50,200 bases of DNA from Flavobacteriales bacterium BRH_c54 (GTDB taxonomy: Bacteria > Bacteroidota > Bacteroidia > Flavobacteriales_E > Vicingaceae), in assembly GCA_000961845.1 (NCBI GenBank), contig LADZ01000039.1, forward strand, positions 1 to 50,200. The letters are read 5' to 3'. Below the pieces are notes generated by a model. That model had not been told where the DNA came from, searched no databases, and saw only the letters and a list, made by a program, of their open reading frames with translations. This document shows positions 4,901 to 20,719 of the stretch, one piece after another. The translations under genes were made by a program, and so were the position numbers. Positions within the stretch are counted from its first letter, which is position 1. Every line of letters begins with the position of its first letter.

Positions 4901-5861
4901 TATTTATTTTATTGGAACTAAGGCTTGTGGAAATGGTGGCACTATAAACATAATGGTCGACATTTTTTAATGATTTTAGTTTATATAAACCGTCAGTTTC
5001 AGTACCTATCCATAATATTCCGGCTTTATCTTCATAAAGTATTTTAATGATATTGTTTCCTATTAATTGGTCGAGTTCTTTGGGAATAGTCAGGCTACTG
5101 TTTTGATGGTTGTAAAAATTTATACCATTATTGGTGGCGATGGTAACAAATCCATGAATATCTTTATGGATATCCCATACGATATTGCTTTTTAATCTCG
5201 AGTTTTCTGAGGTATATTGGGTAAAATCTTTGGTATGGATATTATAAAGTAATAAGCCATTATTTTCTGTGGCAATCATTAATACGTCTGGAGTTACAAA
5301 AACTAATTTTCTAATATTAAGTTTTTTAATATTAGTGCTAAATGGGATGTTAATTTTTGAGATATGAAAATTTAGTGAATCTGTTTTTAATTTTGAAAGC
5401 TTGTATAACGATTGATCTGTTCCTATCCAAAGGCTTTTGTCATCTTCATTTTCTGTAATTGTCCAAACATTATGTTTTTTGGCATTTTTAGTTTTGTTTT
5501 CATTCAGGTAATGTGTAAAAGTTTGGTAATCTCTATTGAACAAATTTAGTCCGTTTTCTGTGCCTATCCAGAGGTTACTATCACTATCTTCATAAATTAC
5601 ATGAGCAAAACTGTTAGAAATAGAGGTGCTATCTAATAAGTCGTGAGAAAAAACAGTAAATTCATAGCCATTGTATTGATTAAGACCGTCTTGTGTTCCC
5701 ATCCAAATTAATCCTTTATAATCTTGGATAATACAGGTAACATCGCTTTGAGAAAGTCCGTCTTTGTAGTTGATTCTATCAAACTTTATATTGCTTTGTT
5801 GTGCTAAAACAAAAAGCGATAAACAGATAAAAAATAAAAGACTTCCAGCTTTTTTAAACAT
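1998..5861 (-). CDS. beta-propeller receptor adenylate cyclase with C-terminal HD domain
   Basis: 1287 residues. After a signal peptide (1-21) come some 14 Reg_prop blades (WIGT-type motifs, about 25-690), a Y_Y_Y domain (about 715-790), one membrane helix (about 795-815), a coiled coil (about 820-870), a class III nucleotide cyclase domain (about 885-1060) and an HD domain (about 1115-1250). Cyclase metal ligands D893 (FTDF) and D937 (TIGDAY) are present. K933 and D1006 (YDIWG) are the adenine-selecting pair, and the VNIGSR Asn/Arg are kept, so cAMP synthesis is predicted. The HD domain keeps H, HD and D in NLHYHD, LYHDAG and CDADLD. This is the architecture of a hybrid two-component sensor with the kinase replaced by a cyclase. 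It lies 40 bases downstream of the OmpA gene and may share its transcript. The ligand and HD substrate are unknown. Confidence 0.9.
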   Translation of the reverse strand: MFKKAGSLLFFICLSLFVLAQQSNIKFDRINYKDGLSQSDVTCIIQDYKGLIWMGTQDGLNQYNGYEFTVFSHDLLDSTSISNSFAHVIYEDSDSNLWIGTENGLNLFNRDYQTFTHYLNENKTKNAKKHNVWTITENEDDKSLWIGTDQSLYKLSKLKTDSLNFHISKINIPFSTNIKKLNIRKLVFVTPDVLMIATENNGLLLYNIHTKDFTQYTSENSRLKSNIVWDIHKDIHGFVTIATNNGINFYNHQNSSLTIPKELDQLIGNNIIKILYEDKAGILWIGTETDGLYKLKSLKNVDHYVYSATISTSLSSNKINTILEDRSGIIWIGTQAGINKFDKQKQFFKHYQHWPNLANTISSNMVWSIFQDRDENLYVGTDQGLTFFDNINGKVIHLKPDFSQENNLKNIGIYSIYQDKKGIIYLGTDGGIFTFKNNKIAQLKIKNFHNARTYTITEDNKNRLWAGTKEGIVIVSEDRTTCQTITSSENIKNDLPNNVVRVILQTKNGSMWIGTDGGGFCNIKEIKNGFSFKIYQRAENKINSLNNNSVLSIYEDKKGFLWIGTFGGGLNRFDPKTETFTHFTEKEGLSNNVIYGILGDKNNNLWISTNKGISFFNPHTKFFRNFEESDGLQSNEFNTGAFFKNHYGEIYFGGINGFNSFFPEDVKINRTKAIPLITNFYLFNKPVHIGENSILNKHISELDAIVLKHKQNVISFEFAALHYSFPLKNKHAYMLENFNEDWVYVDNNRRANYTNLNPGEYLFKIKVANSDGVWSDEIAQIKVIVEPPLWATWWFRTIVILLILLLVYAYYITRINRIKTQKLLLELQVRERTHEVIKQKEEIEIQKELLEKEKEKADELLYNILPEEIAIELKNKGKATARQYRLASIMFTDFQSFTKIAEKISPQDLVSELDYYFVNFDAIIEKYHVEKIKTIGDAYMCAGGIPLRNKSNPIDTVLAGLEIQRFVAKHNPERVEQGKHPWGLRIGIHTGEITAGVIGSKRFAYDIWGDSVNIGSRMEEAGEVGKVNISGATYEYIKEFFNCEYRGKIKAKNKGLIDMYFVNGIRAELSVDGEGIIPNELFQKYVDLHIYSSINYRKAEKYILKRLQKELPDNLHYHDINHTKDVCAAVERLALMEGVEGDDIFLLKTAALYHDAGFIKQYAKNEDIGAALAVEVLPKFGYSFEQIETIKKLISVTKIPHQPTNHLEQIICDADLDYLGGDLFHETADKLKLELMERGIVSSDKEWDELQIKFLEAHRYFTDSAKNLRRANKEKRIAEIKERLEKY

Positions 5862-5901
5862 AGGGTAAAGTTAGTTTAAAAAAATTAGCAGAAAAGAAAA
5901 A

Positions 5902-8199
5902 TTATTTAAGTTTTATTACTTTAAACTCAGTTCTTCTATTTTTAGCTCTTCCCTCAGGGTTGTCATCACCATTAGGTAATTTGTTAGGGGCAATAGGATG
6001 AGCTTTTCCATAGCCTTTGGCAATAATTCTTTTTTTCTCAATTCCTTTAGAAAGAATATATTCTACTGCAGCATCAGCTCTTTTTTGAGATAAGCTTAAG
6101 TTGAAGCTAGCACTACCAATATCATCGGTATGGGAACTTAATTCAACGCCAATATCTTTATTTTTCTTTAGAATGGTAATCAGTTTATCTAACTCTTTTT
6201 TAGAAGGTTCATTTATTTCATAAGAATCATAATCATAAAGAATTTTAGAGATGATAAAATTTTCATTTTCAGCAATTTTAATCACTTCATCAATTTCGTT
6301 TATAAGGGTAATAATGGTTTTATCGGAAGTTAATCTGAGGTATTTAAATTTACCACCAGATTTTTTGGCAGCATCTATCACTTTACCATTTTCATCTAAT
6401 AGAATTACATTAAAACTATCGTTACCTTCTTCTAACATAAACAGATAAACTTCGTCTGGAGCAAGTTTATCGAAAATAAATTTACCATCTTTGTCGGTAC
6501 GAGCTTTTCCGATAACATTACCTTCTTCGTCAAGGATTAAAATTTCCATTCCTTCAGAATAATCGCCTGGTAATTTTTTGTATACCTGACCATAAATATT
6601 GATGGTTAATAAACTTTCATCAACTTCTTCTAATAACTCTAATTCATCGTAATACGTGTAAGGTAAAGCTTTAAAGGTAAATTTTCCTTTATCTAGTTTA
6701 TTCGCTAAAATTACTTTTTCACCTTTTGAATTGGTTAAGTATAGTTTTGCTTGGTTGAGTTTAGATTCATCAGATTCATCAATTTTAATGAGGTAATTTT
6801 CGTCCATGCTTAATTTATCAAACTTGAAATTACCATTTTCGTCTGTTGTGGTAGATTGAATTACTTGGTCATTTTCATCTAATAAATCTATTTTTGTATT
6901 GTCGGCCGTTAATTTTCCATATTGAAGTACCCCTGTAATAGCTGTTTTTTCAACTAAACCTTCCCATTTAAAGCTGTAAATATCATCACTTCCAATTCCT
7001 CCGGGTCTATTAGATGAAAAATATCCTGTATCCTTATCTTGAAAAGTAATTCCAAAATCATCAGCAGGAGAGTTAATAGGAGCTTTTAAATTTTCAGGGG
7101 TTCCTAGTGCTTTACCATTTTTAAATATAATAGAATAAATGTCTAAACCGCCATAACCACCATGTCCATCAGAGGCAAAATAAAATAAGGTATCTTTTAT
7201 GTAAGGGAAAACTTCATCTAATGCAGTATTAATTTCTTTACCTAAGTTTACGGGTTTCCCCCATTCTTCTCCGGTTTTAGAACTCATGTATAAATCCATT
7301 CCTCCGAAGCCTCCGGGCATGTTAGAGGTGAAAAATAATGTTTTTCCATCTTCAGTTATCCAAGGATGAGCAACAGAATAATCTTCACTATTAAAGGGCA
7401 TAGGAGTAATGTCTTTCCACTTACTGCCTTTAGCAGATGCTTGGTAAATTTTAGAATGATTGATTGATTTTTTTGACAATTCGCCTTTTACAGAACGAGT
7501 AAAATATATGGTGTTTCCATCTTTACTAATAGAAACAGGTCCATCATGATATTCGGTGCTTAGTTGGTTAGAAAACTCTTTAACTTTCTCAAAGTTCTTT
7601 TCTTTTTTAGAATAGAAAATAGACAAATAAGGCCTGTTGGTAGAACTATTGGTTTTTTCATTTACAAAATCTATTTGCCTTTCAGAAATAAAAATAAGCG
7701 CATCTTGATAAACCAAAGCACAAAAATCTGAATATTTGGAATTGATATTTTCAACCAAGTTTATTTCAAATGCTTTTTCTTCTTTTTCCCATACTGTAAT
7801 TTCTTCTATAGAGTTGAGCAATACTTTTCCTAGAAAGCTATTAGGTTCTTTTTCTAAAAATAAATTGAATTGTTTTTTTGCCTCAGTAGGCTTGTTATTG
7901 TTTTTTAATACTTGACCATAGTGTAAGTGGTCTGAAGCCAATACATTGTTGCTAAGAGAAGTTGCTTTTTGATAATATTCTTCAGCAGCAGCATAGTTTT
8001 TAAGTTTTTTATGAGAAAAAGCTATATTTCTGAGTGCTTCAGCATTATTGGGGTCTTTTTTTAATGTTTTTTCGTAATATTTTATTGCTTCAGGGTAGTT
8101 GGTTAGTTCAAAATAGCCATTGGCTTTTTCAAGTTGAGCAAAACATGAAATAGTTAATACAAAAAACGTTATAAAAGAAAAGTAATATTTTAAAATCAT
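5902..8199 (-). CDS. OmpA-family protein with TPR, PD40 and CNA-B-like domains (T9SS-linked)
   Basis: 765 residues. A signal peptide ends near SCFAQ (about residue 22). Tetratricopeptide repeats fill about 25-135, PD40/WD40-like blades (FTSNMPGGFGGMDLY, YFASDGHGGYGGLDIY, FSSNRPGGIGSDDIY) about 150-410, carboxypeptidase-regulatory or CNA-B-like beta-sandwiches about 415-635, and an OmpA peptidoglycan-binding domain about 645-765. The last keeps SHTDDIG and LSQKRADA, the Asp and Arg contacts to diaminopimelate. Such proteins anchor outer-membrane machines to the wall and often follow PorP/SprF genes in Bacteroidota; PorE of Porphyromonas has a comparable TPR-PD40-OmpA plan. It begins 12 bases after the PorP/SprF gene, so co-translation and a shared complex are likely. 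Confidence 0.9.
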   Translation of the reverse strand: MILKYYFSFITFFVLTISCFAQLEKANGYFELTNYPEAIKYYEKTLKKDPNNAEALRNIAFSHKKLKNYAAAEEYYQKATSLSNNVLASDHLHYGQVLKNNNKPTEAKKQFNLFLEKEPNSFLGKVLLNSIEEITVWEKEEKAFEINLVENINSKYSDFCALVYQDALIFISERQIDFVNEKTNSSTNRPYLSIFYSKKEKNFEKVKEFSNQLSTEYHDGPVSISKDGNTIYFTRSVKGELSKKSINHSKIYQASAKGSKWKDITPMPFNSEDYSVAHPWITEDGKTLFFTSNMPGGFGGMDLYMSSKTGEEWGKPVNLGKEINTALDEVFPYIKDTLFYFASDGHGGYGGLDIYSIIFKNGKALGTPENLKAPINSPADDFGITFQDKDTGYFSSNRPGGIGSDDIYSFKWEGLVEKTAITGVLQYGKLTADNTKIDLLDENDQVIQSTTTDENGNFKFDKLSMDENYLIKIDESDESKLNQAKLYLTNSKGEKVILANKLDKGKFTFKALPYTYYDELELLEEVDESLLTINIYGQVYKKLPGDYSEGMEILILDEEGNVIGKARTDKDGKFIFDKLAPDEVYLFMLEEGNDSFNVILLDENGKVIDAAKKSGGKFKYLRLTSDKTIITLINEIDEVIKIAENENFIISKILYDYDSYEINEPSKKELDKLITILKKNKDIGVELSSHTDDIGSASFNLSLSQKRADAAVEYILSKGIEKKRIIAKGYGKAHPIAPNKLPNGDDNPEGRAKNRRTEFKVIKLK

Positions 8200-8211
8200 C
8201 TATCTTCGTTA

Positions 8212-9120
8212 TTAAAAATATCTAGGTGAAACAACTTGTGATTTATGCTTAAGAAAATCATAGCCAATAAAAATTTCGTGAGAACCTCCGTTAGAAAGTT
8301 GGGTGGCAGTATAATCATAAGCGTAGCCTATTTTAAATTGGGAAGAGATGTTAAATTCTGTTAGGAAAATTAGAGTTTGGCGAGAGGTTAATGTTATACC
8401 GAATAGAAATTTATTATTAAACAACATGCTGGCATTAATGTCGAGGAAGCCTTGTTTGTTTTGACCTCTCATTATGGCAGAAGTTTTTAATGTAAGTTTT
8501 TCAGTTAAACCAAAAGCTCTTCCAATTGTTGCGGTTCCGTTAATGTGTTTTTTTGCTACAGAAGTTGAAGTATCTATAACAGATAAGTTGTATTGAGCTT
8601 CATTAAGATGGTCTAATGCAATTCCTGCATAAAATTTATTGGTATTGTAATAAATTCCAAAATCGAAGTTGGGTAATATAAAGCTTTCGTTGGTGGTAGT
8701 TGGAATAGCATCATCTTGGTCTCTATAATCAATTTTAGCCCAATCATATTGATAATTTAAAATTCCGCCACGCAATCCAAAAGCTAACTTCCCTTTACCT
8801 AATTTAATTTTATAAGCATAAACCAAAGAGATATCTTGGGTTGTTCTTGGTCCAATTTTATCATTAATTAATTGAAACCCTAACGCCATATTTTGGTTTT
8901 TTAATGGAGAATGAATAGACAAAACTTGTGTTATAGGAGCTCCATCTAAACCAACCCACTGACTTCTGTGGACAAGTACGCCACTGATAGCATCACGACT
9001 ACCGGCATAACCGGGATTTACACCTAAAGGGTTAAACATATATAAACTGTACTGAGGGTCTTGTTGAGCAAAACCCTGTAAGCTTATTATAAACGTTAGT
9101 ATTAGTAGTATTTTTTTCAT
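8212..9120 (-). CDS. PorP/SprF family type IX secretion outer-membrane protein
   Basis: 302 residues from the ATG at 9118-9120; a TTG six bases upstream is in frame but less likely. A signal peptide ends at GFAQ, followed directly by QDPQYSLYMFNPLGVNPGYAGSRD, the family hallmark, and HRSQWVGLDGAP. The rest is alternating amphipathic beta-strands ending in a C-terminal aromatic (YF), as expected for an outer-membrane barrel. PorP/SprF-like proteins pair with particular CHU_C-bearing secreted proteins and help carry or anchor them at the surface. The gene lies between a CHU_C gene upstream and the OmpA gene downstream, with gaps of 27 and 12 bases, which is the classic arrangement. Confidence 0.92.
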   Translation of the reverse strand: MKKILLILTFIISLQGFAQQDPQYSLYMFNPLGVNPGYAGSRDAISGVLVHRSQWVGLDGAPITQVLSIHSPLKNQNMALGFQLINDKIGPRTTQDISLVYAYKIKLGKGKLAFGLRGGILNYQYDWAKIDYRDQDDAIPTTTNESFILPNFDFGIYYNTNKFYAGIALDHLNEAQYNLSVIDTSTSVAKKHINGTATIGRAFGLTEKLTLKTSAIMRGQNKQGFLDINASMLFNNKFLFGITLTSRQTLIFLTEFNISSQFKIGYAYDYTATQLSNGGSHEIFIGYDFLKHKSQVVSPRYF

Positions 9121-9147
9121 TTTCAATTATTCATTATTAATTGTAAA

Positions 9148-9873
9148 TTACCTTGTTATTTCTACCCAGCCTTTGTAAATCGTTCCATCAATATCAGCAA
9201 TATAAAAATAAGTGGAGCTTGAGAGTAAATCTCCTCCTTTATTACTCCCATCCCAAACAACGGTAGTATTATCGTAATTTTCTCCATACCAAACTTCTTC
9301 TCCCCAACGGTTAAATATTTTCACTTCATTTTCTGGAAATTGTTCTATGTTTTCTATAATCCAAACATCATTTTTACCATCGTTGTTAGGTGTAATTCCC
9401 GAATAGAATTTTAATAAACAATCTTCATCATTATCAATTCCAACAGTAATTTGTGTGTTATAAGAACAGTTGTTTCCGGTAATTTCCACATTATATGTTC
9501 CAGCCGAGAGTTTATCAGCTTCCCAAATGGTTACGCTGTCATCAACTGCTTTAATTATCAGTTGATATGGACCTGAGCAGCCTAATACGTTGGAAATAAA
9601 AATTGAACCATTTTGAGCTCCTCTACAAGATTCGTTTATTACTTCATAAGTAACAATAGAATCAGCAGTAGTTTCAGGTTGTTGAAAACCTTGTGTTAAA
9701 ATTTTAGAGGTTGAAAATAAGGTTTGTACAGTAGCTTCTCCAACTGTGGAAGAAAGTGTAATGTTACCTCCTGTTTGGTAACCGCCCGTAGCACCAATTA
9801 CTTGTCGAGAAATGGTGGTTTGAGCAGTTGCTTCCATGGAGAATAAGATGAATATGTAGAGTATTTTTTTCAT
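9148..9873 (-). CDS. short secreted protein with type B (CHU_C) T9SS sorting domain
   Basis: 241 residues with a signal peptide (ends near ATAQ, residue 18). The N-terminal part carries RQVIGATGG, TVGEATVQT and LTQGFQQPE, a head common in Bacteroidota T9SS cargo. A small Cys-containing SprB-like repeat follows (about 75-145). The C-terminal 85 residues form the CHU_C or gliding-motility-associated domain: GITPNNDGKNDVW, KIFNRWGEEVW, WDGSNKGG, YFYIADIDG. This domain directs export through T9SS and surface retention. The protein is very short for CHU_C cargo, so it may act as an adaptor or anchor. The two large proteins encoded just upstream lack such a domain. That role is inference. Confidence 0.88.
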   Translation of the reverse strand: MKKILYIFILFSMEATAQTTISRQVIGATGGYQTGGNITLSSTVGEATVQTLFSTSKILTQGFQQPETTADSIVTYEVINESCRGAQNGSIFISNVLGCSGPYQLIIKAVDDSVTIWEADKLSAGTYNVEITGNNCSYNTQITVGIDNDEDCLLKFYSGITPNNDGKNDVWIIENIEQFPENEVKIFNRWGEEVWYGENYDNTTVVWDGSNKGGDLLSSSTYFYIADIDGTIYKGWVEITR

Positions 9874-9894
9874 TATTAATGGATTGATCAGTTA

Positions 9895-12800
9895 TTAATC
9901 AGCTTTGTTTACAGTATAGGTTATTCTAACACCATATAATCTAATGTTACTTCCGGCATTTCCTTCACTTTGAAATTTTAAATAGTAAGCATTTTGGTTG
10001 TTAACAGTATGATTGGTTGTAATAGATAATGCTTGAGGTGTAGTTGATGCAGAATTACCAGGTAATGTTCCAGTTCCAACTATTCCGTAAGACCCTGATG
10101 CCATATTAATCATGTATAAGTAAATTCGAGGTTGATAGGTAATAGTTCCGTCATTATCATAGATATAAGCAGTAACATCAGTTATGACTGCATCATCGGG
10201 TAAATTTATTGGAGCTACAGCTATAGGATATGTTCCAGAGCCAGAACTCCATTGCCCGTAAATAAGATTTAATGAAGCATTCCATAAATCTAATCCTTCT
10301 CGTGTTCCTACAAATGAATTACCAGCAACAGAATAATAATGAGTTTTAGGAGTTTCGTAAGTGTATTCTCCATCTACTTCAATACTGCCACCACCATCAA
10401 CATCTAGTTTTTGAGATGGTGTAGATGTTCCGATACCAACATTACCTGCTTGGTTGATAAACATTCTTACATTTGATAATGTTGTGGTTGATGTTGCCGA
10501 ATTATCGGTTGTAAATGCAATACCATCGTAACCTGAAACTACTAACCCATCAGAAAATCCAGTTCCTCCTGAACTATGGTCATAAGTAACAATTCCTAAA
10601 TGAAAAGGACGAGCTAATGTAGTGTAACCCTCTCTAAAAGCTAAACCACCAATATTACCAGTACTACCAGCTGCATTTATCATTATACCATTAGTTCCAC
10701 CAATATGTAAATTCATTGTGGGAGTTGTTGTTCTAATACCCACATTGCTATTTCCAGTAATTCTCATCACTTCATTAAGGTTTGAAGAATTTCTGGTCAT
10801 AAATACCATATCACCTTGAACGGATCCAATTGTATGGTTAACATTTTGAACAACAATTTTGCCCATTTCAGCACTTGCTGAATTTGATAACATGGTTGTA
10901 AAAGCAATACTAGAAAAATTATTTGGAGTCATATCTGTATTGAACAATCTCAAAGCTGTTTCTGGAGAACCTCCATAGGCATTTAGTGTTGTTGATGTAT
11001 TTGTTCCTTGTATATGTAGGGCAACATTTGGTGCAGATGTTCCTATACCTACATTACCACTGTTATTGTTGTAAATATCAGTACCATTTAGACTCCACAA
11101 TGCAGTAGGTAAAGTAAGTACAGTATTAGGGTCAGTCCACGTCATAGTACCATTAGCATCTGATACAGGAATATAACCGTTGGTAGCCCCGTTTCTCATG
11201 GTGATTTTCCCATGAACATCTAATTCAGAATAAAATGGAGAACCATTAATTCCAACTTGACCTGATGGGTTAATATTAAAAGGTTGAAGAGAGTTGGTAG
11301 CATTCTCTATTCTAAACATTCCGGTTTCATTAGAAAGTAATACGTATTGATTCATACTTTCCATTACAAAAGCGGCTCCATTAGTAGGAGTAACTTCTTT
11401 TAACATCATTACAGCTGAAGCATTTTCTTCTATGTGAAGTTTAGCCAATGGAGTAGAAGTGCCAATACCAATGTTCCCTGTATTGATATTAATAGCCAAT
11501 CTTGTGTTAGGAGTTCCATTGTTTTCTTCTTTTAAAAACAGATTAGATACAGCATCAACATCCCAGAACCATTCTCGTGTCGGCTGATTTGGATGTCCAA
11601 ATTTGATTTGGTTGTTTGAACCACGTACATGTAACATGCTTTCTGCATTAGTAATTCCAACACCAACTCTATCACCAGCTGTAATTTCGTGTATAGTGGA
11701 TCCTGTTTTCATCCAAGGAGAAGCAGGTAAAGTAACTGTTCCACCACCATTAGAAAGGGTTAAAGTAGGAGCGGTATAAGTTAGTATTTGGGCTGGTGTA
11801 GAAACTGTAAAACTTGGAGAAGTACCGGACACTGTTGTTATACCACCACCTGTTATCGTTGTTGAACTTGCTGGAGAAGTATTGTTTATTGTAAAGTTTG
11901 GTTGAGTACCTGTAATGCTAATGCCTGTTCCTGCAGTATAAGTAGGAGGAGTTGGTAAGGTAACATTATTTCCATTAGAAATAGAAAGTACATTAGTGTT
12001 TAAGGATAATGTTTGAGCATCTGTATTATCTAAGTAAGGAGTTAAATCAACAGGTGTAGGGTCATTGGTTAATGATAAAGTGTTTCCTGTCAAAGTTAAA
12101 TCTTGATTATCGGTTAAAACACCATTTACACTAAGTGGATTACCTGCAGTACCATTTCCGTTTAGTGTTGCATCTGAAATTACAACTTGTGTACCCCAGT
12201 TGTCGTTACCTAACCCGAGTGTATTTGGGTCTGTCCATTTTGCCTGACCAGTTCCATCATTGGCTAAAATCCAGTTGATATTTAAAAAATTATTTCCAAG
12301 AACATATAAAGAATCTGTTAAAAAGGAGCCTGAATTAGCGTTAATAATTGGACCTGTAGAGGAGTAATTATAAATAGTGTCTGTGTTGTTATATATAGCA
12401 GTTTGAGCCTGATTAGCAATTTTTTGAGCTTGGTTTGCGATGACTAAAGTTTGATTAACTATTGCACTATCTGCATTTATAAAAATATGTCCGTCAGTTA
12501 CATCATTAACTAAGGATAATGTTTTTATAGTTGGAGAGTAAGCTATATAAGAAGTAATATTTGATCCACTTAAAAATGTTACACCAGAAGCACCAGTTGA
12601 GTTGGTATTTGAAACCGTTATAGCGGAAACATTAGGATTGCTACCAACAAAACTCGCAATAGAAGAATCAGGTGAAGCGACAGTTAATTTACTAAAAGAT
12701 AGGGGTGTACCTATACTTACATTTCCGGTATTGGAATTATTATTGTTGTATATAGTGTTTCCCGATTGTGACCAAAATCCTGCAGAACCAACATTCCCTG

Positions 12801-13506
12801 AGACTAAAGTGTCCCAAGTTGTGCCGTTATAAATGTAAGAGGTATTATGAGTGGAGTGATAAAACGCATCATTTTCATTATTAGGGGCAGGAGGGAAGTT
12901 AGTTCCATTTCCTAACCAGTTCACACCTAAACCTGTTGCACCACTGTCTCCATTACATACGTAATAAGTATAATCAATTTCTAATGCTTGTAAAATATTG
13001 TCTCCATTATCATCAGTACCGATATCAATTTTATTTCCACCATTTTGACAGTTCGCTCCTGTAGGTTCCGGAGTAACGATAGAAATGCTGCTTTTTCCGG
13101 GTGCACCTTGTGGTCCGTTTGCCGATTGTTTGGAATATAATGCATAAGGCACTGACAGCAGTTGAGAACTTCCCATAGGGTCACCATTCACTTCAACATA
13201 AAGATAATGTAAGCCAGCTCCCCAGTTAATTCCAGCAAATGTTCCAAAAAATGGTGTTCCGCCTCCTATTTCAGCTGTAAACAAACCAAATTGGTTGGTA
13301 GAAATGCCTGTATGTGTTTCTGTATAAATAGAAGTACCCGTTGGAGAACCTTGTCTTATTTCATAAGTAACATTTAGGGTTTGATTAACCAAAGGATTTC
13401 CAGATAAATCTCTAGCCACCGCTTGGTAGTTAATTTTTTCAGGAGCTTGTGCTTTAAGTATTAATCCTGAGAGGAAAAGAATAAGAAAGATTGATAATTG
13501 TTTCAT
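9895..13506 (-). CDS. large secreted tail-fibre-like protein (paralogue without S74 domain)
   Basis: 1203 residues with a signal peptide ending near LKAQ. The N-terminal 200 residues (APEKINYQAVARDLSG, then a beta domain, a short GPQGAPGK collagen-like patch and a Cys-containing GTDDNGDN block ending YVCNG) match the neighbouring 1067-residue protein. The middle is Ser/Thr/Asn-rich beta-repeat sequence, with about seven NVGIGTxTPxxxLxV units from about residue 270 onward, the repeat seen in phage tail fibres and bacterial fibre proteins. The C-terminal 130 residues look like a beta-sandwich (to NKAD) rather than a chaperone or sorting tail. No catalytic domain is recognised. It lies 29 bases after its paralogue and 21 before the CHU_C gene. 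Adhesin or fibre role is inferred. Confidence 0.8.
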   Translation of the reverse strand: MKQLSIFLILFLSGLILKAQAPEKINYQAVARDLSGNPLVNQTLNVTYEIRQGSPTGTSIYTETHTGISTNQFGLFTAEIGGGTPFFGTFAGINWGAGLHYLYVEVNGDPMGSSQLLSVPYALYSKQSANGPQGAPGKSSISIVTPEPTGANCQNGGNKIDIGTDDNGDNILQALEIDYTYYVCNGDSGATGLGVNWLGNGTNFPPAPNNENDAFYHSTHNTSYIYNGTTWDTLVSGNVGSAGFWSQSGNTIYNNNNSNTGNVSIGTPLSFSKLTVASPDSSIASFVGSNPNVSAITVSNTNSTGASGVTFLSGSNITSYIAYSPTIKTLSLVNDVTDGHIFINADSAIVNQTLVIANQAQKIANQAQTAIYNNTDTIYNYSSTGPIINANSGSFLTDSLYVLGNNFLNINWILANDGTGQAKWTDPNTLGLGNDNWGTQVVISDATLNGNGTAGNPLSVNGVLTDNQDLTLTGNTLSLTNDPTPVDLTPYLDNTDAQTLSLNTNVLSISNGNNVTLPTPPTYTAGTGISITGTQPNFTINNTSPASSTTITGGGITTVSGTSPSFTVSTPAQILTYTAPTLTLSNGGGTVTLPASPWMKTGSTIHEITAGDRVGVGITNAESMLHVRGSNNQIKFGHPNQPTREWFWDVDAVSNLFLKEENNGTPNTRLAININTGNIGIGTSTPLAKLHIEENASAVMMLKEVTPTNGAAFVMESMNQYVLLSNETGMFRIENATNSLQPFNINPSGQVGINGSPFYSELDVHGKITMRNGATNGYIPVSDANGTMTWTDPNTVLTLPTALWSLNGTDIYNNNSGNVGIGTSAPNVALHIQGTNTSTTLNAYGGSPETALRLFNTDMTPNNFSSIAFTTMLSNSASAEMGKIVVQNVNHTIGSVQGDMVFMTRNSSNLNEVMRITGNSNVGIRTTTPTMNLHIGGTNGIMINAAGSTGNIGGLAFREGYTTLARPFHLGIVTYDHSSGGTGFSDGLVVSGYDGIAFTTDNSATSTTTLSNVRMFINQAGNVGIGTSTPSQKLDVDGGGSIEVDGEYTYETPKTHYYSVAGNSFVGTREGLDLWNASLNLIYGQWSSGSGTYPIAVAPINLPDDAVITDVTAYIYDNDGTITYQPRIYLYMINMASGSYGIVGTGTLPGNSASTTPQALSITTNHTVNNQNAYYLKFQSEGNAGSNIRLYGVRITYTVNKAD
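11707..12204 (-). repeat. segment shared with the paralogous fibre gene (copy 1)
   Basis: From DNWGTQVVISDATL to SPWMKT this stretch is closely matched by 15333-15902 in the upstream fibre gene. Shared phrases include LTDNQDL, TLSLTNDPTPVDL, FTINNTSPASS and LTLSNGGGTVTL. The N-terminal parts (about 12945-13506 and 16165-16739) are also alike. Differences are scattered, so this is an old duplication, perhaps evened out by gene conversion. Confidence 0.7.
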
Positions 13507-13535
13507 GTTAATTATAAGTTTTTTATAAAAAAATC

Positions 13536-16500
13536 TTAGTTGTTTTTTAGTTCTTGAATTTCTTTTTGTAGTTCTTCAATCATTTTTTGTTGTTCTTGTA
13601 CGGCTTTAATTAAAACGGGTATTAACTGAGTATAATTTACTGTTTTAAAACTAACTGTTTGATCAGTTATATCACCATTTTCATTTGGGATGAAATGTTC
13701 AGACTCTAACACCATTTCCGGAAATACTTTTTCTAAGTTTTGTGCTATAACACCGTATTGTTTTGTGCTTGGAAAATTTAAGTATTTATATTCTTCCGTT
13801 TTAAAGTTATAAGTTTTAATGTCAATTTGAGTTAATTTTTCAATAGCTCCATTAAAACTTTTTATATTAGTTTTAAGCCTTTCATCAGAACCAGTCCAGG
13901 TCCCTGTGCTAGAGTAGGCTGGACCAAGACTATATAGTGCCCAATTTGTTCCTCCTCCGGTTGCGTAACCATACAAACCATAATTTGTAGTTGCTGCACC
14001 AGATGCCCTTGCATAAACACCAATATTAAAAGAACCTGTAGCATCTTGGGCATTTGCGTATATTCCATAATTGTAGGAAGTGGTAATTCTTGAATTTGAA
14101 AAATAACCAGCATAGGTATTGTCGGTTGTTCGAACAGTTAACTTATAAGAGGAAGATGGTGCTGTTCCTATTCCTACATCTCCATATCTTGAAATAGTCA
14201 TAGCTGCATCAGCAGCAGTTACATTAGCATTGCTGGCAATATTATTAACAGCAAAAACCATTGATCCTTCTCCATTAGTGCCTCCAGCGTGGTTAAAAAA
14301 TATTCCCCCTTTGTAGTGAAAATTTCCATTTATGGCAGTTGTCCCTCCAACTCTAAAACGAATACCTGTAGAAGTATTTGTAGTATTTGCTAAGTTTTGC
14401 ATGCTTAGATATGAGTTTCCTGATTCAGTAGTACTGGTGTTATTATCTTGGATAAAAAGTCTGGTAACAGATGTACTATTACCAATGGTAACATTTCCAC
14501 TTGAATTTTGAATGGTCAATTGAGTACCCGTACCTCCTGTTACAAGCATAGAGAGGTTATAATTTGCAGAATTAATCACCTTAAATTGTGCAGCAAGAGC
14601 TGCAGTACCTCCTATTTGAGTTACACCGTCTAATAATGTATTTCCCGCAACATGTAATGAATGAGCAGGAGTAGTTGTTCCAATACCAATATTATCAGTT
14701 AAAACTGTTGGGTATATATTCGTTCCTGTCTTTGTCCAGGCAGTTGCTCCAGGTGAAATGGTATTTAAATCAACCCAAGAAGCATATCCTAGTGCATTTG
14801 AAGTTAAAATTCTATTTAATCCTTCTGTTCCATCCTGAATTCTAACTTGCACAAAAAAATCAGCATTCCCATCATCTATTGTAAATGATGTTCCGCCACC
14901 ATTTGGGGCTATAGCAAATAGATTTCCTGTTTCAAGCATGGTTTGGCTTCCTGTTTGATATAAATCAGCTACACTTGTTCCTCCGTTACTTACACGGAGT
15001 TTACCATTTTGAATATGTAATTTTTCTGTTGGAGTAGTTGTACCAATACCAATATTTCCAAGTCCATCTATTCTAATTCTTTCAGCATTGTTGGTGTGGA
15101 AAGTCATTGGAGCATTGTTGTCTTGTTCTATTCTAAAATCAGTAGAAGCTCTACCACCTGCTCTAATTAATGCAGTACCTGGTGCAGGCGTTGCCAATAA
15201 AAGTCCCATATTTGCATTTCCTGCACCGGAACCAATTCTTGTATAACCAATTACATCTAGTTTTTGTTCTGGCGAAGTTGTTCCAATACCAACATTATCG
15301 GCTAATGTTACTTGATGGATATTTGTACTTGTTTTCATCCAAGGAGAAGAGGATAAAGTAACTGTTCCACCACCATTTGAAAGGGTTAAGTTAGGAGCGG
15401 TATAAGTTAATGTTTGAGCAGGTGTATTAATCGTAAAACTTGGAGCAGTTCCTGATACGGTAGTCATACCGGTTCCTGTTAAAGACATACTACTTGCAGG
15501 AGAAGTATTGTTTATTGTAAAGTTAGGGTAGGTCCCTGTAACATTTATTCCTGGACCATTATTGAGTGCAACAGTTTGGTCAGGAGCTGTATTAGTAATT
15601 ACATTTCCTGTTAAGTTAATACCAGTTCCTGCAGTATAAGTAGGAGCAGAAGGAAGTGTAACAGTATTTCCATTAGAAATAGAAAGGTTATTTGCATTAA
15701 TAGACAGTGTCTGGGCATCAGTATTATCCATATAGGGAGATAGATCCACTGGAGTTGGATCGTTGGTTAGTGATAATGTGTTTCCTGTTAGGGATAAATC
15801 TTGATTATCGGTTAAAATACCATTTACACCAAGAGGATTACCAGCAGTTCCATCACCAGTTAACGTAGCATCACTAATAACAACTTGAGTCCCCCAGTTG
15901 TCAGCTCCTGAACCAGCATTTTGAGCTATCCAAGCAGTTCCATTCCATGTAAGAACTTGTCCGGTTCCAGGTGCAGTAGGACTTAAATTAATTCCTGTAC
16001 CACCTGTAATTCCAATGGAATTTCCAGAAATACTTAAATCTTGAATTTCGTTGGTTGCGGAGGTATCATTATCAAAAACATTTAATGGGTTGGCAGTAGT
16101 TCCATCACCTGAAATATTGTTGCCTTGAGTAATTACTACTTGATTCCCCCAATCGTCACCCGTAGCAGTTCCACTATCTCCATTACAAACATAATAAGTA
16201 AAATCTATTTCTAATGTTTGTAATATGTTGTCTCCATTGTCATCAGTACCGACATCAATTTTATTACCACCGTTTTGGCAGTTAGCTCCGGCAGGCTCTG
16301 ATGTTACAATAGAAATACTATTTTTTCCGGGCACACCTTGTGGTCCGTTAGCAGATTGTTTAGCATAAAGTGCGTATGGAACCGAAAGTAGCTGAGAAGT
16401 TCCAATAGGAATTCCGTCAACAATAACACTTAGATAATGCAAGTTTCCTCCCCAGTTTATTCCTGCAAATGTTCCTGTTGACGGAATTCCACCACCAATT

Positions 16501-16739
16501 TCAGCAGTAAATAGTCCAAACTGGTTTGTACTAACACTAGCATGAGTTTCTGTATAAACCGAAGTTCCTGTTGGAGAGCCTTGTCGTATCTGAAAAATAA
16601 CAACCAATGATTGATTAACTAATGGAGTTCCTGAAAGATCCCTAGCTACTGCTTGATAGTTAATTTTTTCCGGAGCTTGTGCATTTGCAATTAAACAACT
16701 TATTGATAATGCAATTGATAGTAGTATATTTTTTTTCAT
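13536..16739 (-). CDS. secreted tail-fibre-like protein with C-terminal S74 intramolecular chaperone
   Basis: 1067 residues with a signal peptide (ends IANAQ, about 21) and the same N-terminal region as its downstream paralogue. The middle is beta-repeat sequence with at least four NIGIGTTTPxxxLxV units. The last 117 residues begin SDERLKTNIK (S951 to K956), the Ser-Lys dyad of peptidase S74, the self-cleaving chaperone of endosialidase-type tail spikes. They continue with YGVIAQNLEKVFPEMV and NYTQLIPVLIKAVQEQ, and end in a coiled coil. Known S74 domains drive trimerisation and then cut themselves off just before the Ser. A secreted homotrimeric fibre that loses its C terminus is therefore predicted. 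It is the first gene of the run and is preceded by a hairpin leader. Confidence 0.87.
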   Translation of the reverse strand: MKKNILLSIALSISCLIANAQAPEKINYQAVARDLSGTPLVNQSLVVIFQIRQGSPTGTSVYTETHASVSTNQFGLFTAEIGGGIPSTGTFAGINWGGNLHYLSVIVDGIPIGTSQLLSVPYALYAKQSANGPQGVPGKNSISIVTSEPAGANCQNGGNKIDVGTDDNGDNILQTLEIDFTYYVCNGDSGTATGDDWGNQVVITQGNNISGDGTTANPLNVFDNDTSATNEIQDLSISGNSIGITGGTGINLSPTAPGTGQVLTWNGTAWIAQNAGSGADNWGTQVVISDATLTGDGTAGNPLGVNGILTDNQDLSLTGNTLSLTNDPTPVDLSPYMDNTDAQTLSINANNLSISNGNTVTLPSAPTYTAGTGINLTGNVITNTAPDQTVALNNGPGINVTGTYPNFTINNTSPASSMSLTGTGMTTVSGTAPSFTINTPAQTLTYTAPNLTLSNGGGTVTLSSSPWMKTSTNIHQVTLADNVGIGTTSPEQKLDVIGYTRIGSGAGNANMGLLLATPAPGTALIRAGGRASTDFRIEQDNNAPMTFHTNNAERIRIDGLGNIGIGTTTPTEKLHIQNGKLRVSNGGTSVADLYQTGSQTMLETGNLFAIAPNGGGTSFTIDDGNADFFVQVRIQDGTEGLNRILTSNALGYASWVDLNTISPGATAWTKTGTNIYPTVLTDNIGIGTTTPAHSLHVAGNTLLDGVTQIGGTAALAAQFKVINSANYNLSMLVTGGTGTQLTIQNSSGNVTIGNSTSVTRLFIQDNNTSTTESGNSYLSMQNLANTTNTSTGIRFRVGGTTAINGNFHYKGGIFFNHAGGTNGEGSMVFAVNNIASNANVTAADAAMTISRYGDVGIGTAPSSSYKLTVRTTDNTYAGYFSNSRITTSYNYGIYANAQDATGSFNIGVYARASGAATTNYGLYGYATGGGTNWALYSLGPAYSSTGTWTGSDERLKTNIKSFNGAIEKLTQIDIKTYNFKTEEYKYLNFPSTKQYGVIAQNLEKVFPEMVLESEHFIPNENGDITDQTVSFKTVNYTQLIPVLIKAVQEQQKMIEELQKEIQELKNN
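15333..15902 (-). repeat. segment shared with the paralogous fibre gene (copy 2)
   Basis: Counterpart of 11707-12204. It is longer by an extra block near TAPDQTVALNNGPGINVTG, which is absent from copy 1. This suggests that repeat units have been gained or lost inside the fibre region. Confidence 0.65.
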
Positions 16740-16777
16740 AATTATTGAGTTAAGTCTTTTTTAAGTAGCAAACAGAC

Positions 16778-16830
16778 GCATAAAACACATCAGATGTTGC
16801 TTTTGTCTAAAACAACATGAGTTTTATCGC
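16778..16830 (-). promoter_or_regulatory. long interrupted hairpin upstream of the fibre operon
   Basis: The outer stem is GCATAAAAC (16778-16786) against GTTTTATCGC (16821-16830) with one bulge. The inner stem is ATGTTG-C-TTTT (16794-16804) against AAAACAACAT (16809-16818) with a four-base GTCT loop. The hairpin lies about 40 bases from the ATG of the 1067-residue gene and about 115 bases past the end of the SpoIIE gene. There is no T-run after it on the minus strand, so a leader or attenuator structure fits better than a terminator. Confidence 0.45.
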
Positions 16831-16945
16831 AAAAAAATGATACTTTAAGGGAACAAATATAAGAATGAAATTGGTAAAATAGAAATTTTTTTAAAAAGTT
16901 AAGAGGGTGTAAATTGTTGTTAATGAGCTTGAAATGCATAAGGGA

Positions 16946-18733
16946 TTATGCTGTCATACCAATTACAAGTATATCATCTATTTGTTCAAGATTGCCTTTC
17001 CATTTTTCAATGTTATCATTTAATAATTCTCTTTGATTATGGATAGGTTCATTATGAATAGTGAGTAAATAATCTCTAAAGTTTTTATACATTAATTTCT
17101 TGCCTTTTGGTCCGCCAAATTGGTCGGCATAACCATCTGAAAAAATATACACTTTATCATTTTTTTCTAATTTAAAAGTATGGTTGGTATATTTTTGTTT
17201 TGGATTATCAAAATAAGTTCCAATAGCAAATTTATCTGCTTTGGTTTGAATAATGTCGTTGTTTCTAATAATGTATAGTGGGTTAAATGCTCCTGCATAC
17301 TGAATTTCTTGTGTTCTTGGGTCGTAGCAACAAAGTGCTAAATCCATCCCATCTTTGGTTGTAGAAACACCTATTGTGTTATTATGCAATGTTGAGCTTA
17401 TTCCTTGGTTTAAGCTATCTAATATTTCTGATGGCGTATCAAACTCTCTTAAAGCATTGTTTAGAGCATTGTTTCCAATGATGCTCATAAATGCACCTGG
17501 CACTCCATGTCCGGTGCAATCTACTGCTGCAAAATACACTTTGTTGTTTTTTTCTTTTAACCAGTAAAAATCTCCTGAAACAATATCTTTTGGCTTATAT
17601 AAAATAAATGCTTGAGGAAGCATTTTTTTAACTAATTCGTTTGGGGGTAAAATAGCTTCTTGAAGTCCTTTTGCATATTTAATACTGTCGGTAACTTCTT
17701 TATAAAGTTCACTAATTTTAAGGTTTTGCTTTTCAATTTCTTCTTTTTTCTGAACTACTTCAGCAGTTCTTTCTTTTACTTTTTGTTCTAGTAATCTTTC
17801 ATTTTCGGCTAAATCATCACGCATTTTCAGTAATGCTTTCCCTAATGTGTCTTCATTACTTAATGGTTTATATTGAGCATCAAATCTTCCTGAACCTACA
17901 GCGTCAGCAAAATCTTTTGTGGCTTTTAAGTTTTCAACTAATCTATTAAGTGCCATGGTCATTTCACCAATTTCATCATTTCTGGCTTTAATATTTCCTT
18001 TAGGGAAGATTCCCTTACTTAATGTTAGTAGTATGCTTTTAAGGTTAGTTACTGGGGTGACAATAGATTTGGTGGTGTAAAAAGCAATAAGTAACCCCCC
18101 AATTATAAGTGCAATTCCTAAATACTGAGCTAAGGTTTTTAAAAAGTTAAATGAAGACTGCATTTTATTGGTAGCCTGATCGGTATGAAACTTTTGGATA
18201 TTAATTAATTCTTCTAATTGAAAAATAACTTCGTTGGTTTTTATGTATAAATCGCCATCATCACCAATCATTGAGTTGGCAAGAAATTTATTGGTAGCTT
18301 CTTCATAACTCTCAAAACTTGGAAGGTATTCCATTATTTCTCTGTGCATATCAAAAAGGACATCTATTTCCTTAAATAATTTTGACATTTTCTTTCTATC
18401 CTCTTTATTCCAATTTACAGCTAGTTTAGCAATTTTAGTTTTTAATGCAGGATATTCATTTTCAATAAGTTTTATAAGTTTTACTTTGTCCGGATGTTTG
18501 GAGTTAGATTGGTAATATACCCAATTAAAGACAAGCATTTTTGAACGTACTGCCATTAATTTAAGCTCTTCTAAAGTACTTAAAGAGGGGTTGTTTACAG
18601 TAGTAATTTTATCGTTAATGTTTATACTTCTGTCTAAGGTAGTATAAGTAATAGTAAAAACTGTTATTACCAAAAAAATCAGAACACCAAAACCAGTGCC
18701 TATTCTTTTTCCTATGGTAAATTTAAATTTCAT
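16946..18733 (-). CDS. membrane HAMP-PP2C (SpoIIE/RsbU-type) serine phosphatase
   Basis: 595 residues. Membrane helices at about 11-32 and 200-220 enclose a helical periplasmic sensor of about 165 residues. A HAMP domain follows (about 221-275), then a helical linker and a coiled coil (about 300-350), and a PP2C-like SpoIIE domain (about 365-595). Metal-binding aspartates are visible in AAVDCTGHGVPGAF, IFSDGYADQFGG and QIDDILVIG. Proteins of this type remove phosphate from anti-sigma-factor antagonists or other Ser/Thr phosphoproteins; no partner-switch gene is nearby. It lies 24 bases downstream of the TPR gene and is probably the output of the YfiR-TPR-phosphatase operon. Confidence 0.88.
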   Translation of the reverse strand: MKFKFTIGKRIGTGFGVLIFLVITVFTITYTTLDRSININDKITTVNNPSLSTLEELKLMAVRSKMLVFNWVYYQSNSKHPDKVKLIKLIENEYPALKTKIAKLAVNWNKEDRKKMSKLFKEIDVLFDMHREIMEYLPSFESYEEATNKFLANSMIGDDGDLYIKTNEVIFQLEELINIQKFHTDQATNKMQSSFNFLKTLAQYLGIALIIGGLLIAFYTTKSIVTPVTNLKSILLTLSKGIFPKGNIKARNDEIGEMTMALNRLVENLKATKDFADAVGSGRFDAQYKPLSNEDTLGKALLKMRDDLAENERLLEQKVKERTAEVVQKKEEIEKQNLKISELYKEVTDSIKYAKGLQEAILPPNELVKKMLPQAFILYKPKDIVSGDFYWLKEKNNKVYFAAVDCTGHGVPGAFMSIIGNNALNNALREFDTPSEILDSLNQGISSTLHNNTIGVSTTKDGMDLALCCYDPRTQEIQYAGAFNPLYIIRNNDIIQTKADKFAIGTYFDNPKQKYTNHTFKLEKNDKVYIFSDGYADQFGGPKGKKLMYKNFRDYLLTIHNEPIHNQRELLNDNIEKWKGNLEQIDDILVIGMTA

Positions 18734-18757
18734 TAATAGTATAAACTCTTTCGAATT

Positions 18758-19639
18758 TTATTTTTGTAACGATTCTAATTCCTGTTTGTAATAATTAGAT
18801 TTTTCGGCATCGTTTAGCCCATAATAAATGTTTTTCAAACCTTCTAGGGTGTCTTCTTTTCTGTAATTAGATTCGTAAGCTTTAAGCATAAATGGTAAAG
18901 CTTCTTTGAATAAATCTGCAATTTTTTCTTGAGTTGCCATTAAGTTTTCAAACTCCATGTCATAATCCATGTTATTTACAATATCAACTCCTTCATTATA
19001 ATATAAAAGTGATAAGTTGTAGTTAGCAGAAGGATTGTTTTGATCGATAGCTAAAATTTCTTTGTAAATAGCTGCCAATTGATGTCTTTGTGTAGAGTCA
19101 ACTTTGTCTTGTCCTTTACTAATAGCTGTTGCTATAGCAAATTTAAACTGGATTTCATGCTCGTTTAATGTATTTTTATCAGTATTAATTAGCGTTTGTA
19201 GTTGTTTGTACTGATTAAAGTTTTGGTTAGCAAGCTCATAATTTTCATTATTTATTGCTCTTGCAGCATCGTTATAATAAGTTGAAGAAATGTATTTAAC
19301 TAAAGGTTCTGCTTGAGATAAGTAAGTACTAGCAGTATCTATTTTATATAATTTATGAATTGATGTAGCACATTCATTTCTAAGTTCGGAATTCAATTCT
19401 TGTTTTTCTTTAGTTTTATATTGCTCTTTATAAATAAAGCTGCGGTAAAACCAAACTTTAGCTAGTGTTGTAAATTCTTCTTGAGTTGCAGCAATATCAA
19501 TGTATTTCTGTGCACTGTCAAATTCAGCTTTCTGAATATAAAATTCAGCTTTAGACATGCTGTTATTTTGCACGAACTGAGCATTAACTGTTGTTGTAAC
19601 AGCAACCAAAAGGAATAATATGTAAATTAATCTTTTCAT
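18758..19639 (-). CDS. periplasmic TPR-repeat protein
   Basis: 293 residues with a signal peptide ending near TVNAQ. The rest is nearly all helical and carries tetratricopeptide-like units (KAEFYIQKAEFDSAQKYID, ASYNLSLLYYNEGV-like and a C-terminal repeat). The ATG overlaps the stop of the YfiR-like gene (ATGA at 19636-19639), so translation is coupled. It sits between a periplasmic YfiR-like protein and a membrane phosphatase with a periplasmic sensor, which suggests a scaffold or ligand in that pathway. No catalytic residues are recognised. Confidence 0.75.
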   Translation of the reverse strand: MKRLIYILFLLVAVTTTVNAQFVQNNSMSKAEFYIQKAEFDSAQKYIDIAATQEEFTTLAKVWFYRSFIYKEQYKTKEKQELNSELRNECATSIHKLYKIDTASTYLSQAEPLVKYISSTYYNDAARAINNENYELANQNFNQYKQLQTLINTDKNTLNEHEIQFKFAIATAISKGQDKVDSTQRHQLAAIYKEILAIDQNNPSANYNLSLLYYNEGVDIVNNMDYDMEFENLMATQEKIADLFKEALPFMLKAYESNYRKEDTLEGLKNIYYGLNDAEKSNYYKQELESLQK

Positions 19640-20169
19640 TTAACGGCAACAGCTAGTGCTTCTAAGTTTGAACTTACTTTTAGTTTTTGTGTTTCTATGC
19701 TTTTGGTATTCATTTCAAACTTTTGTTTGTTATCTCTAACAACAAAGTTTATTCCGGCTCCTTTATCTACTAAGCCTTCTTGTTCGGTAACTATTAATGT
19801 ACTTCCTGATTTGACTTTTTTAATTACATTACTTAATTCGCTGCTTTTGCCTTTAGTAACATAAAGTAAATGACATTTGTCTAGTTCGGCAGCAGAACTA
19901 AATTTCTTTACTAAAATAGGCTGATTACCAATTTTTTTGGTTTGAGCCATTTTAGTTAATTCATCATAAAGAGGGGTGTCACCCACTATGCCAAAAACAA
20001 AATAACCTGTTTGATAGGCTTTTGGCCATTCTATATACTTAGTGAAATTGTACATAAAAACAGCTTTTAATTTGGCGTTAGTATCTACCTCTTTCTTTGT
20101 AATAAAAGAAGAACCGATAATAAATACCAATAATAATATGAAGCTTGTTTTTTTCACTAATAAGTTCAC
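19636..20169 (-). CDS. YfiR/HmsC-like periplasmic protein (DUF4154)
   Basis: 177 residues; signal peptide, then LKAVFMYNFTKYIEWP, the opening signature of the YfiR family, and later GDTPLYDEL, KIGNQPILVKKF, CHLLYVTKG, STLIVTEQEG and INFVVRDNKQKFEMN. In Pseudomonas, YfiR is a periplasmic inhibitor of the HAMP-containing cyclase YfiN; here the HAMP protein downstream carries a phosphatase instead. The start is GTG at 20167-20169, or GTG twelve bases further in; there is no ATG. Only one Cys is seen, so the disulphide-based control known in Pseudomonas is probably absent. Family assignment is good; the partner is inferred from the operon. Confidence 0.8.
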   Translation of the reverse strand: MNLLVKKTSFILLLVFIIGSSFITKKEVDTNAKLKAVFMYNFTKYIEWPKAYQTGYFVFGIVGDTPLYDELTKMAQTKKIGNQPILVKKFSSAAELDKCHLLYVTKGKSSELSNVIKKVKSGSTLIVTEQEGLVDKGAGINFVVRDNKQKFEMNTKSIETQKLKVSSNLEALAVAVK

Positions 20170-20364
20170 TTGCAGTCAAATTCTAAGCCAAAATAGATTT
20201 AGAATAAATGCAAATATAATTTTTTTAAGCTAAAATAAAAGATGTTTTCTACTTTTTAAAACAATAAGCTTTTAAGCTCTTAGCTTTATAGGAGTTTTGA
20301 TTAATAAAGAAGTAGAGATGAAGATATGTTTTAAGATTTGCAGGATATGATTTAGAACTTATAA

Positions 20365-20691: not shown

Positions 20692-20719
20692 TAGATTGTT
20701 TTATGACAAATGGCTGTAA

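Follow-up and report, generated by a model that had tools for sequence, protein, structure and literature searches.

We analyzed a stretch of 50,200 nucleotides from Flavobacteriales bacterium BRH_c54 (assembly GCA_000961845.1, contig LADZ01000039.1, positions 1 to 50,200; the whole stretch is referred to as the window). The subject is a minus-strand run of five genes, extending from 16739 down to 5902, that encodes two fibre-like proteins, a small protein with a sorting domain of the type IX secretion system (T9SS), an outer-membrane protein of the PorP/SprF family, and a PorE-like protein. Inspection of the open reading frames (ORFs) of the window found all five genes where the first-pass annotation had placed them, with intergenic gaps of 29, 21, 21, and 12 bases. 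The features of the run are given below, with MAT standing for mosaic adhesive trimer; signal peptides of the fibres and the small protein were judged by eye from the sequence.

13536..16739, minus strand: fibre 1, MAT-like and of the S74 type (1067 amino acid residues), with signal peptide, N-terminal head, DUF7151, repetitive shaft, and C-terminal S74 chaperone/protease domain
16362..16679, minus strand: head domain of fibre 1 (residues 21-126), directly behind the signal peptide (Bdello_MAT_N, 31.3 bits, E 1.5e-7, cut-off 60)
13707..13889, minus strand: Peptidase_S74 domain of fibre 1 (residues 951-1011; PF13884, 59.6 bits)
9895..13506, minus strand: fibre 2, MAT-like without S74 (1203 residues), with head and DUF7151 as in fibre 1 and a different C-terminal tip
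13132..13449, minus strand: head domain of fibre 2 (residues 20-125), 80% identical to the head of fibre 1
9148..9873, minus strand: small adaptor-like protein ("mini CHU_C", 241 residues), with signal peptide, N-domain, middle region, and type B T9SS sorting domain
9673..9822, minus strand: N-domain of the small protein (approximately residues 18-67; 60.9 bits, E 3.2e-16, own genome), common to small proteins adjoining fibre heads across the phylum
9151..9411, minus strand: CHU_C/type B sorting domain (residues 155-241; Pfam and NCBIfam)
8212..9126, minus strand: PorP/SprF-family outer-membrane protein (PF11751, 241.5 bits; TIGR03519, 247 bits), presumed to shuttle and anchor the type B sorting domain
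5902..8199, minus strand: PorE-like protein with TPR, PD40 propeller, carboxypeptidase-regulatory-like, and OmpA domains, the presumed peptidoglycan anchor

The highly similar heads of the two fibres each lie directly after the signal peptide and are followed by DUF7151. The NF053851 (Bdello_MAT_N) profile gave 27.5 and 23.1 bits on the whole fibres, and the heads aligned with approximately the first half of the profile. Because the window heads score under the curated 60-bit cut-off of this family, we call the fibres MAT-like and not MAT. Fibre 1 carries the SDxxxK motif as SDERLK (residues 951-956) at its S74 domain, and fibre 2 had no S74 match in Pfam. A stretch of the fibre 1 shaft resembled 8ond (named bd2133; E 9.5e-5) and 8ojn (named cell wall surface anchor family protein; E 1.8e-4). 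Pfam and NCBIfam, searched at E <= 1, gave neither fibre a T9SS sorting domain of type A or type B. The first-pass annotation had described both fibres as having signal peptides and no T9SS sorting tail, and this description stands; only fibre 1 ends in Peptidase_S74.

In the available part of PMC10769870, every one of the 21 MATs of Bdellovibrio bacteriovorus has a beta-rich domain directly behind its signal peptide; an S74 end with SDxxxK distinguishes 13 of them from the other 8, and what the conserved MAT domain binds at the surface is left open there. The window fibres share with these MATs a domain after the signal peptide that matches MAT_N, the SDxxxK motif in the S74 form, and a Bd2133-like shaft, and as an S74 form and a non-S74 form they parallel both MAT classes. 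They differ in that their heads match approximately the first half of the MAT_N profile, below 60 bits, and in that the fibres are paired with a T9SS-tagged partner. Judging from sequence, the window fibres are predicted to form trimers on the cell surface.

To place the heads in the phylum, 296 Bacteroidota genomes were searched, yielding 112 heads in 65 genomes. All 76 strong heads matched Bdello_MAT_N at E <= 0.01 (best, 4.3e-14); a search for NF053851 in 14 control genomes gave no match, and PDB sequences gave none up to E 1 against a profile of the 76 heads. The modelled head of a relative was almost entirely beta. Pfam and NCBIfam found no T9SS sorting domain in the last 120 residues of 99 of 100 complete head proteins, and 27 of the 100 carried S74 in this region. 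A motif test detected no sorting domain in the 112 head ORFs, 8 of which were cut at the locus end, and missed the one case seen by Pfam/NCBIfam.

Some distant heads (59-87 bits) were located near the N-terminus of proteins of approximately 1700 to >3000 residues (L126, L133, L136, and L141), most of them without a recognisable small partner; these very large proteins may be anchored differently. The genome of the window also encodes a 775-residue S74 protein (L046, 5037-7361) that contrasts with the head fibres, having no recognisable head and an apparent C-terminal T9SS sorting domain of its own, for which the profile does not tell type A from type B.

The small protein matched PF13585 (CHU_C) at 83.9 bits (cut-off 27) and TIGR04131 at 54.8 bits (cut-off 35). 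It had been characterized at first as almost only a sorting domain, which proved incorrect: CHU_C covers 85 of the 241 residues, and a separate conserved N-domain of 45-50 residues precedes it. In the type A form, there is little beyond the N-domain and the sorting domain. NCBIfam assigned 55 of 62 small proteins to type A (TIGR04183) and 4 to type B (TIGR04131). Sorting types were called by sequence motifs together with NCBIfam counts; the type B domain of L257 (TPNADG) was missed by the motif and counted as type B. The type A sorting domain gave sequence matches to the C-terminal domains (CTDs) 8glj_D and 8glk_D, and the modelled CTD of a relative resembled the NucA CTD bound to T9SS (8glk_D, Z 8.5) and the mirolase CTD (8qb1_C, Z 9.2). 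The sorting domain of the type A small protein is a genuine T9SS signal. With its signal peptide and type B domain, the window's small protein would qualify as a type B T9SS substrate; PorP adjoins it, and SprA occurred in all 65 head genomes.

The surroundings of the heads were then compared. Stretches were fetched around 110 of the 112 heads, leaving out two weak matches (G148:C9 and G279:C6), and gave 100 loci, among which L044-L046 were picked for own-genome S74 matches and not for heads. Head clusters of >=90 bits were regarded as strong (68 strong and 31 weaker clusters). A small protein was present within two genes of the head in 58 of the 68 strong clusters, upstream in 50 of these 58, and in 13 of the 31 weaker clusters. 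Two of the 58 rest on weak N-domain matches (L106, 12.8 bits; L108, 13.7 bits), and L053, in which the adjoining 167-residue protein has a type A motif and no recognisable N-domain, was counted as lacking a small protein. Where the small protein was directly upstream, the gap was <30 bases in 51 of 56 cases. Among the 5080 ORFs of the loci and the window, the N-domain profile found 73 matches, of which 67 were directly beside a head on the same strand, 5 were two genes off, and 1 was farther away.

Since this locus set was centred on heads, the same 296 genomes were searched separately with the N-domain only. This search revealed 76 matches in 60 genomes; 66 of them were within 5 kb of a head match, compared with approximately 0.4 expected, and the remaining 10 all scored <=36 bits. 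Head and N-domain occurred together in 55 genomes, the head only in 10, the N-domain only in 5, and neither in 226 (Fisher p 2.6e-43, kinship ignored).

Two further sets were compared. At least 577 relatives were found in named records (Flavobacteriales, Bacteroidales, Chlorobiota, and others), and in the best 80 of these the small protein accompanied 73 of 86 head clusters; 4 clusters were at a contig edge and 9 lacked it. The set from the window's order comprised 65 head clusters from 60 of 80 planned loci, the window, and two more own-genome loci. Heads were present in 44 of 46 genomes of the order, and the small protein was within two genes in 50 of the 65 clusters; among the other 15, 10 were contig-edge cuts and L257 had it farther downstream. 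The N-domain and the head stay together while the sorting type changes.

PorP was sought in the loci of the 296 genomes with a purpose-built profile, which also found the PorP of L073 that overlaps another ORF. A PorP neighbour was present in none of the 48 strong type A clusters and in all six type B cases (the window, L058, L063, L065, L073, and L101). L065 and L101 have weak N-domains (8.0 and 4.6 bits) and were counted in this tally and outside the 58. Six more small proteins in strong clusters had an unclassified sorting type and no PorP. PorP tracks the sorting type. The first-pass annotation had named, as grounds for dropping its proposal, fibre genes lying mostly without CHU_C/PorP neighbours, and taken literally this was the pattern seen: CHU_C with PorP occurred at only 6 of the 68 strong clusters, and 48 were type A without PorP. 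CHU_C with PorP is therefore one variant of a wider rule. The co-occurrence of head, mini CHU_C, and PorP/SprF, which the first-pass annotation had put forward as a check, was seen across the phylum for the head and the small protein, and for PorP in the type B cases.

In several loci of family f24, with few or no PorP matches (L054, L072, L077, L090, L092-L095, and L100), the fibre is followed by a recurrent gene of approximately 196-199 residues and then by an opposite-strand gene of approximately 359 residues; these are possibly further parts of the type A version.

In the window's order, each of the 16 type B small proteins (one being the window's, another, in L271, nearly identical to it) is found in a cluster that also contains fibres and PorP. 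The type B small protein is directly before PorP in 15 of the 16, and in L270 a fibre lies between them. PorP is accompanied in every one of the 16 clusters by an OmpA-domain protein, encoded by a PorE-like gene in 15 (truncated at the end of the locus in L257 and L266) and fused to PorP in L273. None of the order's 33 type A loci had a protein homologous to the window's PorP or PorE across 60% of its length. One to four fibres usually precede the type B small protein, and one adaptor may thus serve several fibres. A different OmpA-family gene was noted near the type A loci L231 and L264. In three loci, a single ORF downstream of a fibre gene and a CHU_C gene encodes both PorP and an OmpA domain (L065, 12033-13754; L101, 12143-13945; L273, 349-1734), and the single-protein fusion in L065 and L101 supports PorP and the wall anchor working together. 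In L226, a type B cluster has a type A small protein and a head placed between one of its fibres and its type B small protein, which resembles an insertion of the pair as a unit.

The protein at 5902-8199 is called PorE-like only, because the PorE profile NF052230 gave 340.6 bits against a cut-off of 600; the CHU_0125 profile gave 439.1 bits against 620. It has all domains of the PorE list in the available part of PMC9143113 (TPR, PD40, carboxypeptidase-regulatory-like, and OmpA). According to the parts available of PMC12618676, PMC9143113, and PMC10994853, PorV serves every type A CTD, a type B CTD depends on a cognate PorP/SprF shuttle whose gene is often nearby, and PorE-like neighbours accompany static anchoring. 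The order CHU_C-PorP-OmpA, which the first-pass annotation had taken as known in Bacteroidota, is indeed published (PMC9143113, PMC12618676). In Porphyromonas gingivalis, a type B CTD protein (PG1035), PorP, and PorE form a complex (PMC9143113), and the window likewise combines a type B CTD protein with PorP and with a PorE-like protein of TPR/propeller/OmpA layout. PG1035 is speculated there to be a PorP cap, whereas the window's type B protein has a head-linked N-domain and shares its operon with fibres. In Flavobacterium johnsoniae, Fjoh_3952-3951-3950 similarly place a type B substrate, its cognate shuttle, and a PorE-like gene in a row, proposed as a static adhesin anchor (PMC12618676). 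The CTD is on the substrate itself in those operons, whereas in the window it is on a separate small protein beside fibres lacking a CTD. The OmpA-PorP-type B part is thus already known from these sources, and the new part is the pair of fibre and small protein, its spread, and the switch between type A and type B together with PorP. In open-licence PubMed Central, we found no published account linking MAT-like fibres to Bacteroidota or T9SS, or describing the pair of head and small protein.

The conserved block in the window's order was larger than the five genes first delimited and often included three genes upstream.

16946..18733, minus strand: HAMP and SpoIIE-type phosphatase (595 residues), retained within the window's order on the upstream side of type B fibre clusters
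18758..19639, minus strand: TPR-like protein (293 residues), kept upstream together with the phosphatase
19636..20169, minus strand: YfiR/HmsC-like protein with DUF4154 (177 residues), kept upstream together with the phosphatase

A nearly full-length homologue of the HAMP-SpoIIE protein lay upstream, in a trio with the TPR-like and YfiR-like proteins, in 9 of 16 type B loci (the window included; some others are incomplete) and in none of the 33 type A loci. This trio is possibly a regulatory unit. Forty bases past the PorE-like gene, a 1287-residue protein (1998-5861) carries Reg_prop propellers, Y_Y_Y, adenylate/guanylate cyclase, and HD domains, and some relatives have full or partial homologues of it. 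A 642-residue protein at 38146-40074, which combines an HYR domain with a T9SS sorting tail of type A, is apparently unrelated to the fibre cluster. The TAnnTTTG sequence, a Bacteroidota -7 motif, occurred at 16861, upstream of fibre 1, and at 20218; the pattern TTG-N16-22-TAnnTTTG had zero occurrences in 1998-21000, and we make no promoter claim.

We favor, with guarded confidence, the interpretation that the locus encodes a split T9SS cargo, in which the small protein acts as an adaptor, gripping the head of the fibre and directing the fibre through T9SS, here to a PorP/PorE anchor. The two trimeric MAT-like adhesive fibres would enter the periplasm via their signal peptides. Having no recognisable signal for export across the outer membrane, they would depend on the small partner protein to supply one: its N-domain would bind the head at the base of the fibre, and its C-terminal domain would be recognised by T9SS. 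In most Bacteroidota pairs, the type A partner would lead into the general PorV route; in the window and its relatives, the type B partner would be collected by the adjoining PorP/SprF and linked to the cell wall through the PorE-like protein. The outcome would be static fibres with interchangeable tips. The type A form is almost only an N-domain and a genuine sorting domain. Bringing a partner along is the most plausible job of the small protein, and its adaptor action is likely; we infer that the N-domain contacts the head and that fibre and small protein pass the outer membrane jointly. The first-pass annotation had proposed that the CHU_C protein is a bridge docking fibres to PorP/SprF. 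This proposal is partly supported, by the N-domain tracking the heads (66 of 76 within 5 kb) and by the recurrence of fibre, type B protein, PorP, and OmpA (16 of 16); its PorP link is not general, given the 48 type A clusters without PorP.

In a co-fold, the adjacent small protein and head of a relative were modelled as one chain, with one stop codon read through, and the small protein alone served as control. The head and the sorting domain folded well and the N-domain did not. Foldseek on the fused model returned generic tandem Ig/FN3-like sandwiches, with informative T9SS matches from the CTD part only. In a mirror-tree comparison of 96 pairs, head distances correlated with those of the N-domain at r 0.85 and with those of the CTD of the same protein at 0.79 (bootstrap difference, 0.02 to 0.10), which favors co-evolution of the head with the N-domain over the CTD. 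The across-species signal was not repeated among within-genome paralogues, and we therefore counted it as weak support. The SprA translocon was present in 65 of 65 head genomes compared with 227 of 296 overall (2.4e-9 by chance, kinship ignored). Of 20 SprA-less genomes listed (of 69), 16 belong to one family, and this association was for that reason also taken as weak support.

Several observations weigh against a split cargo. The co-fold gave no confident interface (N-domain pLDDT approximately 40, pTM 0.44, similar to the small protein alone). Within-genome paralogues do not separate the N-domain from the CTD (rho 0.56 and 0.51, respectively, in 30 type A pairs), and the comparison over all 49 pairs gave 0.25 (p 0.08). 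The genome counts and the SprA association both ignore phylogeny, and adjacency may reflect shared regulation only. Every MAT_N match of the window's heads is under the family cut-off. By our tally, a small protein could not be recognised in 8 of the 68 strong clusters or in 18 of the 31 weak ones. One of the 100 complete head proteins carries its own type A sorting domain; it is probably the 3092-residue protein of L136 (806-10084), which has a distant head (81 bits, purpose-built profile) and no recognisable small partner. This single case would fit a head needing either a partner or a signal of its own. Published T9SS export of cargo lacking a CTD via a partner bearing one was not found in open-licence PubMed Central.

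The same pairing and domain evidence would also apply if the small protein were exported alone by T9SS and acted as a surface receptor, holding the head of fibres that reach the surface by another route, and the available part of PMC10769870 does not name the surface route of Bdellovibrio MAT fibres. We regard such a dock as unlikely, though worth keeping in view: among the window genes, which were scanned at full length, no other outer-membrane exporter family was recognised beside the heads; SprA accompanies the heads in all 65 genomes; and the tight gene order, in which the small protein mostly comes first (50 of 58), is consistent with the two assembling jointly in the periplasm. Fibre and small protein might instead be surface proteins of one adhesion programme that never touch, as the co-fold without an interface and the non-discriminating paralogue distances would allow. 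We consider mere co-regulation still less probable, as the N-domain is rare elsewhere (10 of 76 matches away from heads, none above 36 bits), the type A form is approximately just an N-domain and a sorting domain, and the pair is kept while genomic setting and sorting type change.

A PorP cap or accessory, as speculated for PG1035 of P. gingivalis, with the fibres as bystanders, would agree with the complex of type B CTD protein, PorP, and PorE reported in the available part of PMC9143113 and with the same trio in the window. Most small proteins, however, are of type A and adjoin fibres, with a PorP neighbour in 0 of 48, which makes this role very improbable. Remnants of a phage tail or contractile-injection tail were considered on account of the S74 domain and a similarity to a long tail fibre (6f45, E 0.0024). 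This origin was rejected, since 50,697 phage records contained nothing matching the head at E <= 0.01; signal peptides are visible in the fibre sequences, and the scan of 1998-20169 recognised neither a phage tail gene nor an injection gene.

Extending the split-cargo interpretation from this locus to the phylum, we suggest more tentatively that T9SS serves a class of two-part cargo, in which adaptors made of a head-binding domain and either sorting signal export and anchor trimeric fibres that lack a signal of their own. The N-domain would then be the surface partner of MAT-like heads in Bacteroidota, and a swap of the sorting domain alone would redirect fibres from PorV to a wall anchor of PorP and PorE. 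T9SS is commonly portrayed as an exporter of proteins with their own C-terminal signal; if this suggestion is true, prediction of T9SS secretomes would change, and fibres lacking a CTD would have to be counted. The N-domain of the small protein would provide a named candidate for what the conserved MAT head grips at the cell surface. If true, this arrangement would also mean a modular display of large trimeric fibres with interchangeable tips on Bacteroidota.

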